Part shown: piece by piece, positions 1-5,631 of the stretch | Layout: each line of letters begins with the position of its first letter | How positions within the stretch are numbered: the first letter of the stretch is position 1 | NCBI GenBank assembly: GCA_016932965.1 | Contig: JAFGBW010000162.1 | Location: 1 to 5,792, forward strand | Direction: 5' to 3' | DNA: 5,792 bases | DNA from: Candidatus Auribacterota bacterium | GTDB taxonomy: Bacteria; Auribacterota; JAFGBW01 | Program-made: the position numbers and the translations under genes | Notes under the pieces: generated by a model | What the model was told of the DNA's origin: nothing | What the model saw: the letters and a program-made list of their open reading frames with translations, nothing else | Database searches by the model: none

Positions 1-485
1 AAGAGAAGGTACTCAACAGAAAAATTCGGCATGTTATCAAGGCGGGACATTTCCTCTTCACGGGTCCTAAACAGGGCAATATGATCGACTGCCATGAAAA
101 ATTCCCATCTGCGTCTGGGATCTCTGAGAATATTGAAGACCTCCTCGTCACCTTTTTGAGCCGAAATAGCCTGCAGTAATTCCATACAGGATTGAGTCAA
201 ACGCTGTCCATCATACAACGGCGCATAATCGTGTTCCGGGAATTTACCCCTCCAGACTTCATCTTGTTTTCTTTTACTGTCCATGGCTGTAAACAGGGTC
301 AAAACCCTGATAACAGGACTGGAGCTTTCGATGGAAAGAGGAGCCAGACAAGAACCGGCCGGGAATGCACTGCCGGAAACTTCAACTGCAGAATTAAAAC
401 AAGCTGCACTCAGAAAAAGAATGAAACTGAAAAGACCAGTTAAGAAGGATTTTGTTTTTGTTGTGTTTTGTAAATTCATGGCCAT
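1..485 (-). CDS. Exported protein of unknown function with LAP motif (C-terminus off left edge)
   Basis: The frame is open from ATG at 485 (alternative in-frame ATG at 479) to the left edge, 161 visible codons, so the end is missing. I do not recognise the family. The N-terminus is a typical export signal: Lys residues near positions 10-12, a hydrophobic core at about 14-28, then AAC at 27-29. That is only a weak lipobox (Ser, not Leu, at -3), so Sec export is likely but lipoprotein status is doubtful. After a short Ser/Gly/Ala linker comes SCLAPLS (residues 45-51), resembling the N-terminal regions of two other genes in this window. The rest is soluble and charged, with EVFNILRDPRRRWEFF and HIALFRTREEEMSRL-type helices and no catalytic motif I can name. 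No Shine-Dalgarno precedes either ATG, so the start is uncertain by two codons. A promoter-like element lies at 564-592. Confidence 0.72.
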   Translation of the reverse strand, partial: MAMNLQNTTKTKSFLTGLFSFILFLSAACFNSAVEVSGSAFPAGSCLAPLSIESSSPVIRVLTLFTAMDSKRKQDEVWRGKFPEHDYAPLYDGQRLTQSCMELLQAISAQKGDEEVFNILRDPRRRWEFFMAVDHIALFRTREEEMSRLDNMPNFSVEYLL

Positions 486-563
486 TTTTTATGTGTAGAT
501 CACTCGTTCCGGTTTCAATATAAAACCAGCCTGAAAATGATCACCTGTATCTGTCCGGAGATA

Positions 564-592
564 ATGATACACCATTTTCGCAGATATTTCAA
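564..592 (-). promoter_or_regulatory. Sigma-70-like promoter for the 485 minus-strand gene
   Basis: On the minus strand TTGAAA (587-592) and TATCAT (564-569) are separated by exactly 17 nt, each one base from consensus. Transcription would begin near 557, giving an untranslated leader of about 70-80 nt before the start at 485/479. This is seen from sequence only; no -35/-10 combination as good was noticed closer to the gene. Confidence 0.45.
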
Positions 593-754
593 GGGGTTCG
601 CAGACATAAATGAATGGTTCATCGTTGTTGGTGAAAAAAGATGGGAAGGTAAAATAATATTTAGAGACATGAATGTCCGGCTTATAAATAAAGAAATATC
701 GTAAAACACAATAAAATAGTGGGATTGATTAAAAATAAAAGGAAGCCGGACATG

Positions 755-934
755 GAATTCAGAATTGAGAATTCAGTAGGGAAGTCTTTGGCGTTTCGCA
801 TTGGAGCATAAAATCATTAGTCCGCCTTGAAGCCCTCCTGTTTCGTAGCATAGAGGTGAACGCGACCAACGGGAGTCCCCCTTTAGGGATGAGGCCGAAG
901 GCCGGAACAATACTGAATCCTCAATTCTGAATTC
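755..934. repeat. 180-bp MITE-like element with 24-bp terminal inverted repeats
   Basis: Positions 755-778 and 911-934 are reverse complements at 23 of 24 positions; the match stops abruptly on both sides. Each arm is itself built from two copies of a GAATTCAG-type octamer (755-762 and 769-776; mirrored at 927-934 and, with one change, 913-920). The 132-nt interior has no open frame of note and is more GC-rich than its flanks. It includes small hairpins such as TCCC-CCTTTA-GGGA and GGCC-GAA-GGCC near its right end. No target-site duplication is evident. It could be a non-autonomous mobile element, an intergenic repeat family, or a structured transcript; one copy alone cannot decide. Confidence 0.6.
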
Positions 935-1022
935 TTTAAAAATATCGCATAAAGTAAAAACCTAAAAATAACATGAAACAATAATTGAATAATAAACCGG
1001 ACAGTAGTGAGTTAGACAGAAT

Positions 1023-2075
1023 TTACAGGATTCCCTCAATTTCATTTTCAAGAAGGCTCCATTCATCTGAGAAGAATCTTTTATAAAGATTTCCCTGTCT
1101 GTCGATGAGAATAAAAACCGGTATGGCTTCAAAATTCCCATAATCTTCCATGACTTGTTGAGTCCCCCATAATACGGGATAGCCGTAATCTGTTTTTGAC
1201 CGGTCCCTGATTTTATCATCGGAGAGTTTTTTCCAATCGCTGATTTTATCAACAGACACAGCCAGCACGATTAATCCTTTCTGATTATATTTTGAATACA
1301 GTTTTTTCAATTCCGCTCCTGCTTCAACACAAGCCGGACACCAGAGCGCCCAGAATTCCAAGAGAATTATTTTTCCAGAAAAATCAGACAAGGCCACAGG
1401 AGTACCTGAAAAACTCTCCAGTTGAAACGGCGGTGCCGGGAATTTTTTTTCCAGCTGGTCTTCAAATCTGGATACGGAATAAAAATGATTCGCGTATTCG
1501 ATATTCTGCAGAAAGCCTTTTCTTTCGCCGAGAATTTTGACTGTGTTCCGAGTCGCTTCCATACCTTTACGAAAATAGTCGGAAGCCGGGCCGTATTTTT
1601 TTTCTTTCATGAGCCGTTCAGCGTATCTGATCATTCTATATCCCGGCTGGTCCAGGCAGTATTCATAATTGCCTTTCCAGGCCTTTTCATCCCTGATTTT
1701 CAACAGTTCAAGATACATAGATGCCGCTTGTTCAAATTCAGCCGATGCAGCATCAAAATCACTGCGGTCGGCTGCTTTTTCAGCCTCTTTCATTTTCAGA
1801 TAAGCCCTCTGACCCTTGTTATAAAGATAATTGGTGTCAGCGTTTTTCAGCGTCCGTTTATAACCGGTATTCTCCGGATCAGAAGCAAGACCTGCCCTGC
1901 ATATTTCTGAAATTTTCAAATATAATTCCGCAGCCTGTTCAAACTGGTTTTCCCGGGACAGTTTAGAAGCTTGCTGCTCCAGAGATTCCGCTTCATCAGA
2001 ATGCACAACCGGGGTGATACTCAACAGAGCAGCCAGGACGAACAATCGCAAACCGGTTTTGACATGATTCTTCAT
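1023..2075 (-). CDS. Exported TPR protein with C-terminal TlpA/ResA-like thioredoxin domain
   Basis: The product is 350 residues and probably acts outside the cytoplasmic membrane as a thiol-disulfide oxidoreductase. A signal peptide spans about residues 1-26 (KNHVKTGLRLFVLAALLS core, cleavage near VVHS-D). Residues 28-205 are helical with TPR-like units around 36-60, 91-124 and 152-175, likely for protein binding. Residues 212-350 form a TlpA/AhpC-TSA type domain: APPFQL, then GKIILLEFWALWCPAC with the redox pair C246/C249, then a probable cis-Pro at AIPVFILID (P319) and the DRQGN turn. CPAC differs slightly from the CPPC common in TlpA/ResA. The ATG at 2075 is chosen because AAAGGA (2084-2089) precedes it by 8 nt and it gives a proper signal peptide; an upstream extension to 2216 would overlap the PrsW-like gene. 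It overlaps that gene's stop by ATGA, so it is probably translationally coupled as the last gene of the operon. Substrate and redox direction cannot be told. Confidence 0.9.
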   Translation of the reverse strand: MKNHVKTGLRLFVLAALLSITPVVHSDEAESLEQQASKLSRENQFEQAAELYLKISEICRAGLASDPENTGYKRTLKNADTNYLYNKGQRAYLKMKEAEKAADRSDFDAASAEFEQAASMYLELLKIRDEKAWKGNYEYCLDQPGYRMIRYAERLMKEKKYGPASDYFRKGMEATRNTVKILGERKGFLQNIEYANHFYSVSRFEDQLEKKFPAPPFQLESFSGTPVALSDFSGKIILLEFWALWCPACVEAGAELKKLYSKYNQKGLIVLAVSVDKISDWKKLSDDKIRDRSKTDYGYPVLWGTQQVMEDYGNFEAIPVFILIDRQGNLYKRFFSDEWSLLENEIEGIL

Positions 2076-3202
2076 TTTATCAATCCTTTCAGGCGGAAAA
2101 AATTTTTCATCAGGGACCGGACATATCTTTCGCCGGATTCTGAAAAACGGCTGTTCTTCATGACATATAAATGAAATGCCAAAGTCCGTCTGACTAAAAG
2201 CAGCGATGACAAACATCTCAGGAAAAGCCGCTTCTGTTTTGATACAGCAAATTGACTCAATAATAGACGAAGACCTGAGAAAAAGGGAGACAGGATACGC
2301 AGATGAACCGGAGCTGAAAAAATGATTTTTGTTTCAAAAATAAGGCAGACCAGAACAAGCAGATAAAATACCCAGGCGGATAAGGTGCCATGACAGTTGA
2401 TGGTCAGAAAAAAATCCGTGAATTTGTCCGCGATAGTGTGGCTGTGACGATAATTGAAAGCCGCATGATCCGCCACCATCCACAGCCAGATGAATAGGGG
2501 AAACAGCCAGGACGCCCAATGGATCCTTTTTGAAAATTTTGATTTTATCAAAGGCCCGATCATCATTGAAAACCCCATAGCCATTCCGATAAATCCCGTG
2601 GCGGCAGGATGCCCGATAAAATATTTCGGGGTGTCACGCGTAAAAATGCCGGTGCCGGTAAGACTCGGAAACGGATAAAACCATCCCCAGTGCAAAGTGG
2701 ACTCATGCATGGCGAAAAGGTCCGGGGGAATGACACATCTGGTGAGAAAAACCCGGAGGAAATCTTCCGTCCAGGTAAAGCCAGCCCCCAGGGCCGAGCC
2801 AAGGAGTAATAGATCCGAGCCTGAAAAACAGAGTCTTCCTTTCTTTTTCATCCAAACGATCAACAGGATCAACGGCAGGACTTTGAATGTTTCCTCCAGA
2901 AACGGAATGATAAAGGACGGAAGCAGATTGCCCGTGGTTCCGGTGAATAAAGCCGCGAATGAACTCATGAGAATCACTGTAACAGGAATGACCGTTGCTC
3001 CCAAAAGAAAGGCATTCGTCACCCAGCCAAACTGAATGGTCCTGGTTAAAGATATCGATAACGTGACAATACCCAAAAAATACAGGGGGAATATCAGGCT
3101 GGGCCAGGTTTTGGGGAAATAAATAAAAAAAGGAATGAGTGCTATGATCAAACAAATTAAACGAAGTCTGTTGATACCTGCCGGGGTTTTGAATGAGCTC
3201 AT
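2072..3202 (-). CDS. PrsW-family intramembrane protease homologue
   Basis: A 376-residue polytopic membrane protein with about eight hydrophobic segments between residues 12 and 292. The family hallmarks appear in order: EETFK (EExxK, residues 103-107) at the start of a membrane helix; GAGFTWTED with E146 (FxxxE-type); GHPAATGFIGMAMG with H198; and DHAAFN (residues 245-250). This layout matches the PrsW (PF13367) relatives of the CPBP/CAAX-protease superfamily. Bacillus subtilis PrsW makes the site-1 cut in anti-sigma factor RsiW; the substrate here is unknown. No anti-sigma factor is visible nearby. The protein is longer than the roughly 220-residue B. subtilis PrsW, the excess including an 80-residue Arg/Lys-rich tail after the last helix (about 297-376). 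The start at 3202 lies 2 nt after the stop of the upstream gene and lacks a good ribosome binding site, suggesting coupling; its stop overlaps the next start. Which residues remain catalytic cannot be tested from sequence alone. Confidence 0.88.
   Translation of the reverse strand: MSSFKTPAGINRLRLICLIIALIPFFIYFPKTWPSLIFPLYFLGIVTLSISLTRTIQFGWVTNAFLLGATVIPVTVILMSSFAALFTGTTGNLLPSFIIPFLEETFKVLPLILLIVWMKKKGRLCFSGSDLLLLGSALGAGFTWTEDFLRVFLTRCVIPPDLFAMHESTLHWGWFYPFPSLTGTGIFTRDTPKYFIGHPAATGFIGMAMGFSMMIGPLIKSKFSKRIHWASWLFPLFIWLWMVADHAAFNYRHSHTIADKFTDFFLTINCHGTLSAWVFYLLVLVCLIFETKIIFSAPVHLRILSPFFSGLRLLLSQFAVSKQKRLFLRCLSSLLLVRRTLAFHLYVMKNSRFSESGERYVRSLMKNFFRLKGLIK
2084..2089 (-). promoter_or_regulatory. 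Ribosome binding site of the TPR-thioredoxin gene
   Basis: AAAGGA on the minus strand, 8 nt before the ATG at 2075, inside the last codons of the PrsW-like gene. It is the best Shine-Dalgarno sequence in the operon and fixes the start at 2075. Confidence 0.7.
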
Positions 3203-3204
3203 GT

Positions 3205-3606
3205 TTATTTATTTTTTATAAAAAAGTTCCAAGCTTCATTGGCCTGTTGTTCCGCCTGATTTTCAATGTAGCTCATTTCATCCTGCAGCGCATGTTCCGC
3301 CAGGTCCTGAGATCTCTCTTTCATCTGGCTTTGAGCGAGTTTGACATATACCGCTGCCAATGCCTCTCCGGCCAGCAAATCCGCCCCGAATGGCGTTATG
3401 TACGCGATTTCCTCCAGATTGCCGGCCAGACCTTCTCCGACACCCCTTCCAAAAGAGCCGCCGATTTTTTCTCCCGCGTTGCCGAGAAAAACCCTTGCAT
3501 AGGCTTCCAGGATAGCCCAGCCGGATAAGAACAGGGCAAACGGCCAGCGGATAACATCCTGAATGTCCCTGAAAATCATGTATAAGGCCTGCATGCAAAA
3601 ATCCAT
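3205..3606 (-). CDS. Small membrane-associated protein of unknown family, first gene of operon
   Basis: 133 residues; I do not recognise it. Visible parts: an N-terminal amphipathic to hydrophobic helix (about 18-41, WPFALFLSGWAILEAYARVF), a glycine-rich stretch (42-62, GNAGEKIGGSFGRGVGEGLAG), a second moderately hydrophobic helix (67-90), and a Gln/Glu-rich charged helix to the end (93-133) that may form a coiled coil. There is no cleavable signal peptide. The ATG at 3606 is preferred because GGAG (3617-3620) sits 10 nt upstream; a TTG at 3615 is open but only 1 nt from that site. The gene ends 2 nt before the PrsW-like start, and its context suggests it partners with or is a substrate of that protease, which is inference. 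The composition is protein-like and the reading frame agrees with the operon, so I believe it is real. Confidence 0.72.
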   Translation of the reverse strand: MDFCMQALYMIFRDIQDVIRWPFALFLSGWAILEAYARVFLGNAGEKIGGSFGRGVGEGLAGNLEEIAYITPFGADLLAGEALAAVYVKLAQSQMKERSQDLAEHALQDEMSYIENQAEQQANEAWNFFIKNK

Positions 3607-3616
3607 GACCGTCAAA

Positions 3617-3620
3617 CTCC
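3617..3620 (-). promoter_or_regulatory. Ribosome binding site GGAG that decides the 3606 start
   Basis: GGAG on the minus strand lies 10 nt before ATG 3606 and only 1 nt before the alternative TTG at 3615, so it argues for the shorter protein. Confidence 0.5.
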
Positions 3621-3636
3621 GTCTGATTTTGTGTTT

Positions 3637-3665
3637 ATTGTATATTTATCCTATCATCGTGAAAA
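3637..3665 (-). promoter_or_regulatory. Possible operon promoter
   Basis: TTTTCA (3660-3665), a 17-nt gap, then TACAAT (3637-3642) on the minus strand. The -10 is one base from consensus and the -35 is weak (4 of 6). The start point would be near 3630, giving a leader of about 25 nt. The surrounding AT-rich DNA makes chance matches likely. Confidence 0.28.
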
Positions 3666-3754
3666 TCAAAAAAATCAGAGCCAATTGCAGAACCCCCTAT
3701 TGTTAAATAGTCCGCTATTTCGAAACGGAGTGAAAACACTTACTATATTGAAAA

Positions 3755-3821
3755 AGATCCTTCACTTCATTCAGGATGACACTTCGTGTCAGTTCAGATT
3801 CCTCGTTTCACCCGGAATGAC
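3755..3821 (-). repeat. Two REP-like direct repeat units
   Basis: Two 26-nt units on the minus strand (3796-3821 and 3755-3780) start with GTCAT and end with ATCT, agreeing at 18 of 26 positions with all eight differences being transitions. The joining segment forms a 6-bp hairpin TGACAC-TTC-GTGTCA (3777-3791). The unit closely resembles a GTCAT(T/C)C-type dispersed intergenic repeat that I recall from many bacterial genomes, in which frames translated across it give spurious small ORFs. The minus strand runs into a T-tract after the second unit (3751-3755), so it may also help end transcripts from the gene at 3898-4217. Confidence 0.65.
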
Positions 3822-3897
3822 ATCCTGGACGGGTTTGAAATGACCTCATTATTTCGATATTCAGCCTTTTTGATGCCCCCATGAGTCCATATCAGAA

Positions 3898-4217
3898 TCA
3901 GGCGGCATGAATGGCCGGCGGTTCCCTCATGGCAGAGAGCAGGGCTTTCTCACGAAGCCTTATCATTATTTCTGAAATAATCTCATCACATTCCGCGGGA
4001 CAGCGGATCCGGCCATGGGCTCTCAGCAACAATTCAATGTGTCATTTCTCTCATCATCAATATCCGGCATGGCTGTTGATATCCGGCCGATGTTGTTAAG
4101 TGCATTTCGGGGGGCAAGACAACCCAGTCCCGTGGTTTGCAGACGGTTATCCGCAGACAGAAACAGATCATCTGAAGCCAGACTCAATAAGATCAAAACT
4201 GACAGAAACAATTTCAC
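3898..4217 (-). pseudogene. Probable frameshifted gene for small exported protein with LAP motif
   Basis: From GTG at 4217 the minus strand encodes VKLFLSVLILLSLASDDLF, a clear signal-like hydrophobic N-terminus, then GLGCLAPRN (LAP at codons 34-36), then a polar segment stopping at 4023. In the -1 frame the strand stays open from 4041 to a TGA at 3898. Those 47 codons look protein-like: IELLLRAHGRI, CDEIISEIMIRLREKALL, with G-rich first codon positions. One base change between about 4023 and 4041 would join both parts into about 106 residues. I therefore read it as a gene broken by a single-nucleotide deletion, or a base error. It could instead be an intact protein of about 64 residues, or rest on programmed -1 slippage, though I see no canonical slippery heptamer. 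The start is uncertain: the frame is open upstream to 4334 and no Shine-Dalgarno is present. Function unknown. Confidence 0.42.
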
Positions 4218-4223
4218 GAATAC

Positions 4224-4355
4224 ATTATACCCTATATCCGCGAAAAAACCTGGGATTCCGGAATGCGACTGCAATAAGCGAGAACGGCGCGTACCGGCCG
4301 ATGCCGTCATAAAATTTCCGCAACGCATTGACATAAGAATTATATAGGGTATAAT
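4224..4355. repeat. 14-bp inverted repeat at divergent -10 regions
   Basis: ATATAGGGTATAAT occurs on the plus strand at 4342-4355 and, perfectly, on the minus strand at 4224-4237. Each copy contains TATAAT placed as a -10 box for a gene pointing away: the HExxH gene to the right and the broken LAP-motif gene to the left. The rightward copy also has a full -35; the leftward one has none recognisable (CAGGTT at the expected place). It may be a shared operator or a duplicated promoter core. Confidence 0.55.
4328..4355 (+). promoter_or_regulatory. Full-consensus sigma-70-type promoter for the HExxH gene
   Basis: TTGACA (4328-4333), 16-nt spacer, TATAAT (4350-4355); both hexamers match consensus perfectly. 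Transcription would begin near 4362, leaving about 37 nt before ATG 4399. The -10 lies in a perfect 7-bp palindrome, AATTATA (4338-4344) with TATAATT (4350-4356), a plausible repressor site. Confidence 0.75.
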
Positions 4356-4398
4356 TATTGAGTAGGATTTTCTAAACGAAAAACACTTGTTTCATGAA

Positions 4399-5631
4399 AT
4401 GAAAACCAGCTTATTAACAAAACTGTGTTCATCTGTTCTTGTATTTGTTTTCATAACGGAGCAGATTGCTTTCTCCTCTTCCAAAAATTTCCGGAATGAA
4501 TACCATACACTGGCTCCGCAATCAACGATGCCGTCCGACTGGAAAACTTCTAAAAGAATCCGGCCGTGGCTCCTAAGTCGATTCAAGTCTCTCACAAGTG
4601 ACCATAAAACATGGAAAGCCCTTTTAAAGGATCCCACTTTTTTGGGCATTCTTAATTCTGAATTATTGAGAACATTCAAACCTCATCAGACACCCCCCAG
4701 AGATTTTAACTTTGAAGTCAGGTCTTACAGACATATGCATACCCCGGAGAAGAGCATCCTGCACTGGATTGTTTACTATTTGAATTATTCATTTAATAAT
4801 CCTATCGCTCCGGCTTTTTTATTTCAGCTGTTTCTGTTCATCCCTTTGGAGATCATTTCCTTTTTCGTCTCCGTTCCCAATCCATGGTATTATGTCCCGG
4901 GACTGGTTGTATTTCTAATGTATTTGACTGCCCGGCTATTCAAATCATCATTTTTTGCCTGGGTTCATTACTCAGAAGAAATCATGAATAGAATCATTAC
5001 ATGGAGTTGGTTTGGCGACAACCGTGATCCGGCATTCTTTGCTCTTTCTCTGGTTCATGAATACCTGCATATCATAGACAAACAAATCTATTTTAATGAT
5101 ACCCAGGCCTTTTTGTTTCTGGCATTTATCGGATTTGATCTCTCGTCACTCCACAAGTCATTCCCCTATGCTGCCGAATTGGCACATCCCCGTTCCTCAA
5201 TTCTTGCTCAACCTGACACTCCCTTAACAGAGAAGCTTTCCCGATTGGAAGATGAGATGAAAAAAGATGTCCAATCCATTTTGACCTATTATTTCCATCC
5301 GGACCGTATGACGCACCTTTCTCAAGAAAGAGGTCATAATAGAAAATTGAGAGAGCCTTATCTTCCTAACGAGGTTTTGGGTCTTTATCTATCTGAAATT
5401 TACCTTCAATTGAGGGAAGCTTTACAACAGGAACCTGAATTATCCGATGAGGCGGCTTTGTATGCCGAGCAGTTCATCACCCGTTTTTATGAGGACCTCA
5501 GGGAAGATTTGATCCGGGCAAATATTGATAACGTGAAAGAGCCCGAACGTAAAAGAGCCTACCAGCAGACACTGACCGGCCAGAAAAGGGGAACTGCTGC
5601 CTTCCCGTATCTGTTTCTCTGTTCAGCCTGA
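4399..5631 (+). CDS. Exported/membrane HExxH protein, putative zinc metalloprotease, with LAP motif
   Basis: 410 residues, no family recognised. Residues 1-25 form a signal sequence or anchor (KTSLLTKLCSSVLVFVFITEQIAFS); HTLAPQS (36-42) follows. Two membrane-spanning segments lie at about 136-159 and 163-181. Residues 216-227 read LSLVHEYLHIID: HEYLH (220-224) has the HExxH zinc-binding and catalytic Glu pattern in the expected hydrophobic setting. A hydrophobic stretch (237-246) follows, then AAELAH (258-263), whose Glu or His could supply a third ligand; that is inference. The C-terminal third is soluble and helical, rich in Glu, Arg and Leu, with HPDRMTHLSQERGH near 304-317. The ATG at 4399 is preferred over an in-frame TTG at 4387; neither has a good Shine-Dalgarno site (TAGGA near 4363 is too far). 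It is monocistronic as far as visible, behind a consensus promoter, and convergent with the gene at the right edge. Confidence 0.82.
   Translation: MKTSLLTKLCSSVLVFVFITEQIAFSSSKNFRNEYHTLAPQSTMPSDWKTSKRIRPWLLSRFKSLTSDHKTWKALLKDPTFLGILNSELLRTFKPHQTPPRDFNFEVRSYRHMHTPEKSILHWIVYYLNYSFNNPIAPAFLFQLFLFIPLEIISFFVSVPNPWYYVPGLVVFLMYLTARLFKSSFFAWVHYSEEIMNRIITWSWFGDNRDPAFFALSLVHEYLHIIDKQIYFNDTQAFLFLAFIGFDLSSLHKSFPYAAELAHPRSSILAQPDTPLTEKLSRLEDEMKKDVQSILTYYFHPDRMTHLSQERGHNRKLREPYLPNEVLGLYLSEIYLQLREALQQEPELSDEAALYAEQFITRFYEDLREDLIRANIDNVKEPERKRAYQQTLTGQKRGTAAFPYLFLCSA

Follow-up and report, generated by a model that had tools for sequence, protein, structure and literature searches.

A two-ended tag on one class of exported proteins in a Candidatus Auribacterota bacterium, with related proteins in Omnitrophota

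The Plasmodium export element (PEXEL, or host-targeting, HT, motif) of Plasmodium and the RxLR motif of oomycetes are each found on many unrelated proteins, many of which act in another cell. A C-terminal signal common to unrelated exported proteins is used by the LPXTG/sortase and PEP-CTERM/exosortase systems and, as the C-terminal domain (CTD), by the type IX secretion system (T9SS), and the lipoprotein export signal (LES) of Bacteroidetes sits after the lipidated cysteine. PEXEL is a short motif lying a few residues after the signal peptide (PMC4608785), and LES is a short N-terminal sorting motif that likewise comes after the signal peptide (PMC5080379). Here we describe a pair of short tags, one near each end of the chain, carried by one class of exported proteins of a Candidatus Auribacterota bacterium (assembly GCA_016932965.1; hereafter the source genome), starting from the 5,792-nucleotide contig JAFGBW010000162.1, which in its whole length is the window of this analysis. 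An earlier note on the window had pointed to a Leu-Ala-Pro tripeptide (LAP) behind the export signals of three otherwise unrelated predicted proteins and had suggested a sorting, anchoring or processing tag; when the coordinates were rechecked, LAP stood at all three sites, and each site follows a hydrophobic N-terminal segment.

The N-terminal tag, L-[AS]-P-x-[ST], is accompanied by a C-terminal tag that consists of the last two residues of the chain, and the two are found together on a single class of exported proteins. With PEXEL and RxLR this system has in common that unrelated proteins bear a short motif soon after their signal peptide; it differs from PEXEL in that RxLxE/Q/D is replaced by L-[AS]-P-x-[ST], in that the carriers are bacterial, and in the presence of the second, C-terminal tag. 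LES resembles it as a short bacterial N-terminal sorting motif following a signal peptide, whereas most carriers here have no cysteine at that place and no acidic run after the tag. Like LPXTG, PEP-CTERM and the T9SS CTD, the C-terminal tag is a signal on unrelated exported proteins, but it lacks a C-terminal membrane segment, a basic tail or a conserved domain, being limited to the last two residues. We know of no earlier case of unrelated bacterial proteins bearing a two-ended export tag, and a literature search found no published description of it, which is weak evidence of absence as such a search covers subscription journals little.

Besides the window, we read 80 other contigs of the source genome amounting to 809 kb (the genome comprises 3.14 Mb on 300 contigs), with genes called by a hexamer model of our own and by a second caller using a longest-open-reading-frame rule. 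Over the 35 residues that follow the hydrophobic core of the signal peptide, LAP was the most enriched of all tripeptides, with 20 occurrences against 1.41 expected (P=1e-16; runner-up P=6e-5), while its permutations PAL, ALP, LPA, APL and PLA occurred 0-3 times each in the same 177 proteins; with the longest-frame caller the corresponding figures for LAP were 31 and 1.93. The full pattern L[AS]P.[ST] was present in 27 of 261 proteins with the discovery window excluded, against a mean of 1.07 and a maximum of 6 in 2000 within-segment shuffles. Residues 25-65 of cytosolic proteins contained no LAP (0/287) and the full pattern once (1/287), and none of 162 of the secreted proteins examined for the tag contained the pattern in its interior. 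The enrichment over shuffled and cytosolic sets by which the earlier note had proposed to judge the tag is thus plain to see, and about 1 in 9 exported proteins of the source genome is tagged.

In most carriers no more than about 20 residues separate the motif from the end of the hydrophobic core, which would put it at or near the mature N-terminus. The carriers show no BLASTP similarity to one another, in agreement with the view that they are otherwise unrelated, and the codons used for LAP vary freely among them, which argues that the motif itself is selected and was not recently copied, and speaks against a shared 5' or 3' cassette passed between genes. A cysteine directly before LAP, to which the earlier note had drawn attention, falls outside the motif and is a minority feature; it is the serine or threonine at the second position after the proline that belongs to it. 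Because that cysteine is confined to a minority, lipid anchoring is not indicated and we rejected lipoprotein anchoring as the function. Of the functions first suggested, sorting or processing is well supported, by the enrichment, by the lack of homology among carriers and by the second tag. Contamination was likewise rejected: tags occur on about 20 of the 80 contigs, and one contig (L026) holds a tagged gene beside a gene 77% identical to one of a same-order genome.

Among tagged proteins with a complete end, 23 of 25 finish in [SAGC][ASG], mostly as -SA, -AA or -SS, compared with 32 of 505 other proteins. The last residue is alanine in 17 tagged proteins (1.3 expected) and the penultimate residue is serine in 17 (2.1 expected); conservation is confined to positions -2 and -1, with none that is strong from -12 to -3. 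Small C-terminal ends separate tagged from untagged secreted proteins with a Fisher probability of 3e-18, and the association between the two tags holds in even- and odd-numbered contigs taken separately (P 3e-9 and 9e-10). Two secreted proteins that have small ends and were missed by the N-terminal pattern carry the near-miss tags LGPLS and ISPTT. As a separate observation on C-terminal peptides, the transfer-messenger RNA (tmRNA) of the source genome (L034:2707-3104) has an unusually long predicted tag peptide, AKDIFAGARENVVPMNFVPMVPLPFAA.

The window itself contains the following features of tagged genes:

3..485, minus strand: tagged exported open reading frame (ORF) that runs past the contig end, its translation giving a predicted signal peptide followed by SCLAPLS
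333-347, minus strand: LAPLS of this ORF
4023..4217, minus strand: putative N-terminal part of a broken tagged gene, with a predicted signal peptide followed by GCLAPRN
4104-4118, minus strand: LAPRN of this frame
3898..4041, minus strand: probable remainder of the broken tagged gene, read in a different frame and closing with ..MREPPAIHAA*, whose AA is the C-terminal tag
4387..5631, plus strand: complete tagged exported protein of 414 residues from a TTG start (alternative ATG at 4399), with a predicted signal peptide, HTLAPQS and the end FLCSA
4510..4524, plus strand: LAPQS, its N-terminal tag
5056..5070, plus strand: HExxH motif (HEYLH) of the same protein, read from the sequence
5620..5628, plus strand: its C-terminal CSA, of which the last two residues, SA, are the second tag

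The complete protein at 4387..5631 matches no family above cut-off in Pfam or NCBIfam and was found in the source genome only (59 genomes searched); its HEYLH is a possible zinc protease site. The ORF at 3..485 has no Pfam match and no significant NCBIfam match. The frame starting at 4217, whose coding status had been left in doubt, is not a whole gene, and the hexamer gene caller gave no gene at 4023..4217. This frame breaks off at 4023, but a second one on that strand, open from 4041 to a stop at 3898, continues to ..PPAIHAA*; we infer that the two frames belong to one gene, so that the locus has the look of a tagged gene in which a frameshift or a sequencing error has interrupted the reading frame. 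The PrsW-like protease of the window, which the earlier note had speculatively linked to the tag, does not follow it from genome to genome: two Omnitrophota genomes with tagged proteins (G388 and G340, see below) gave no PrsW match, and genome G074, with no tag in a 20-kb sample, has one, so that PrsW was dropped as a candidate reader or protease. The source genome has two PrsW-family proteins, one in the window (2072-3202, minus strand), which covers about half of the profile, and one at C189:10127-10636. Positions 740-960 of the window hold an intergenic repeat with inverted AT-rich ends, resembling a miniature inverted-repeat transposable element (MITE), with 71-90% identical copies on at least five other contigs in the sampled quarter of the genome.

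Every carrier with a Pfam match above cut-off is of a kind that normally works in the cytoplasm. These include a radical SAM protein related to RlmN, in which the CxxxCxxC cluster and the late cysteine are kept, and a uridine kinase joined to a CYTH domain (L003:10669-12087) that matches the pyrophosphatase TTM1 across both domains (7z66), an architecture best known from plants; the other carrier domains are isochorismatase, GNAT, amidohydrolase, Asp/Glu racemase, AAA_5 and WD40. The majority of carriers match no family, and the statement on cargo therefore rests on the minority that do. Ten random untagged signal-peptide proteins gave, by contrast, domains of the envelope, with an outer-membrane efflux protein, PilO/T2SSB, a GDSL lipase, an S49 peptidase and a Band 7 protein, the rest being without match. 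Carriers are poor in lysine and rich in arginine, with R/(R+K) of 0.55 vs 0.36-0.39 (P ~1e-12) at equal GC content, and their cysteine content is low, like that of secreted proteins. Tagged genes cluster, forming 8 adjacent pairs against 2.0 expected (P=0.001), and their products are mostly separate chains of 200-1000 residues, each with its own pair of tags.

The earlier note called such N-termini frequent in Omnitrophota predictions, which is partly right; the source genome belongs to a different and smaller phylum (44 genomes, compared with 384 drawn from the larger group), although at least two Omnitrophota genomes do have a like N-terminal tag. Our search of that phylum covered these 384 genomes and was entered through a lysyl-tRNA synthetase scan (two Omnitrophota loci); a contig scan with the RlmN-like protein gave no match. 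The best relatives of the tagged uridine kinase-CYTH protein come from Omnitrophota G388 and G340 (42 and 41% identity). In the parts of these two genomes covered here, L[AS]P follows a signal peptide in four complete ORFs; all four end in [AS]I, an end shared by none of the other 87 of 91 ORFs. Elsewhere in the phylum, a single ORF of G205 (L223:3-3389), whose N-terminus is cut off, joins a CYTH domain related to the tagged protein with sigma-70 regions 2, 3 and 4.

Giant ORFs have been reported in most Omnitrophota classes, with few annotated domains and a poorly understood role; in one species, attached cells showed an increase in peptides of one of them, and an action of the proteins outside the cell has been proposed (PMC10066038). 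Matches to our carriers fall, besides in ordinary-sized ORFs, in Omnitrophota ORFs of 2,363, 9,333, 20,415, 2,770 and 39,957 residues. For the tagged 763-residue protein of G340, residues 65-744, the part between its tags, match inside a 19,367-residue ORF at 40% identity, with partial matches in ORFs of 19,582, 27,888 and 20,944 residues. Such matches are not automatic, since the RlmN-like query matched only ordinary RlmN-sized ORFs in Omnitrophota. Domains recognised in the giant fragments are cytidylate and uridine kinases, HD, RmlD, ARMT1 and PHP. The giants thus contain modules related to carrier domains, the difference being that the source genome has mostly separate proteins, each tagged at both ends. 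A giant of 2,362 residues has a single L[AS]P, located behind its signal peptide, which suggests that the tag marks the exported chain, and the sampled giants showed no excess of internal L[AS]P, such as the joining of modules end to end might leave behind; one tag per chain, giants included, speaks against tags as joints between modules, an idea that we therefore set aside.

On balance, we lean towards the view that the two tags together serve as a sorting signal, by which a dedicated route would export cytosol-type enzymes from the cell and perhaps deliver them into prey or host. The signal peptide would bring the tagged class through Sec, after which one dedicated machine would read both ends and send the whole class to a single destination; by a PEXEL-like logic this would lie outside the cell, most likely in the cytoplasm of a partner, prey or host, or in a surface organelle. 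Export is favoured because the cargo is cytosol-type, diverges rapidly and is related to giants that are believed to have other cells as their targets. That the tag pair exists is near certain; the route and its reader are what we infer, and the weakest point is the destination. Several points weigh against this proposal. The data cover 26% of the source genome, with signal peptides called by a hydrophobicity rule rather than SignalP, and the Omnitrophota evidence amounts to four complete ORFs from two genomes. Partial sampling of two same-order genomes and 13 others from the phylum gave 390 complete ORFs and no double tag, where the rate of the source genome predicts about 16, making the tag patchy. 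The shift from lysine to arginine is absent from the Omnitrophota carriers, and lysine depletion was accordingly discarded as a general property of the system. We identified no receptor, protease or translocon. Finally, an ATP/ADP translocase, considered as a marker of a lifestyle of host ATP theft, was not found in the source genome, which leaves no independent sign of host dependence.

The main rival, which we think unlikely, is retention in the envelope or in a membrane compartment inside the cell, where the C-terminal pair would play the part of KDEL or peroxisomal targeting signal 1 (PTS1). A conserved dipeptide at the extreme C-terminus is what such a signal would look like, cytosol-type enzymes would suit an enclosed compartment, and the secreted-like cysteine content of the carriers fits as well; nothing pointed to an internal compartment, however, and the carriers have relatives in Omnitrophota giants proposed to act outside the cell (PMC10066038). 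The ends might instead be a legacy, now unread, of the break-up of ancestral giant exported proteins or of end-swapping recombination. The relatives inside giant ORFs and the clustering of tagged genes agree with such descent, to which we give little credence, because the tag residues alone persist in signal peptides and tails that otherwise no longer resemble one another, codons being free, and because internal L[AS]P is not in excess in the giants.

Turnover or processing would have the C-terminal pair bound by a tail-specific protease with a PDZ domain (Prc/CtpA type), with LAPxS as a trimming site. Small non-polar C-terminal ends suit proteases of this type, and AA is likewise the end of the tmRNA tag in the source genome; it is nevertheless hard to see why an entire class of large enzymes that appear intact should bear a degradation signal, the corresponding end in the Omnitrophota carriers is [AS]I, and we regard this explanation as improbable. 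That the N-terminal motif reflects chance, composition or known domain families is scarcely credible. Family motifs did account for four of the first 34 matches (BtuF, ATP synthase c, DppC and DctP), and their removal left the 30 carriers; the number seen far exceeds the shuffle maximum, the permuted motifs are rare, and the motif is associated with an independent C-terminal feature in both halves of the contigs, which together rule out chance and composition.

The export reading, which we continue to prefer, has a wider and much more doubtful extension: double-tagged enzymes and Omnitrophota giants could be two versions of one delivery system, which would send intact cytosol-type enzymes across the bacterium's own envelope into the cytoplasm of a partner or prey cell, in the form of many proteins with two tags each or of a single once-tagged giant. 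The tag offers a sequence handle on the exports of uncultured relatives of Omnitrophota. It names a likely class of cargo, namely nucleotide kinases, enzymes of RNA-modifying type and other cytosolic enzymes, and it shows which ends any machine reading the class would need to recognise, so that the search for the reader becomes a tractable problem of co-occurrence.
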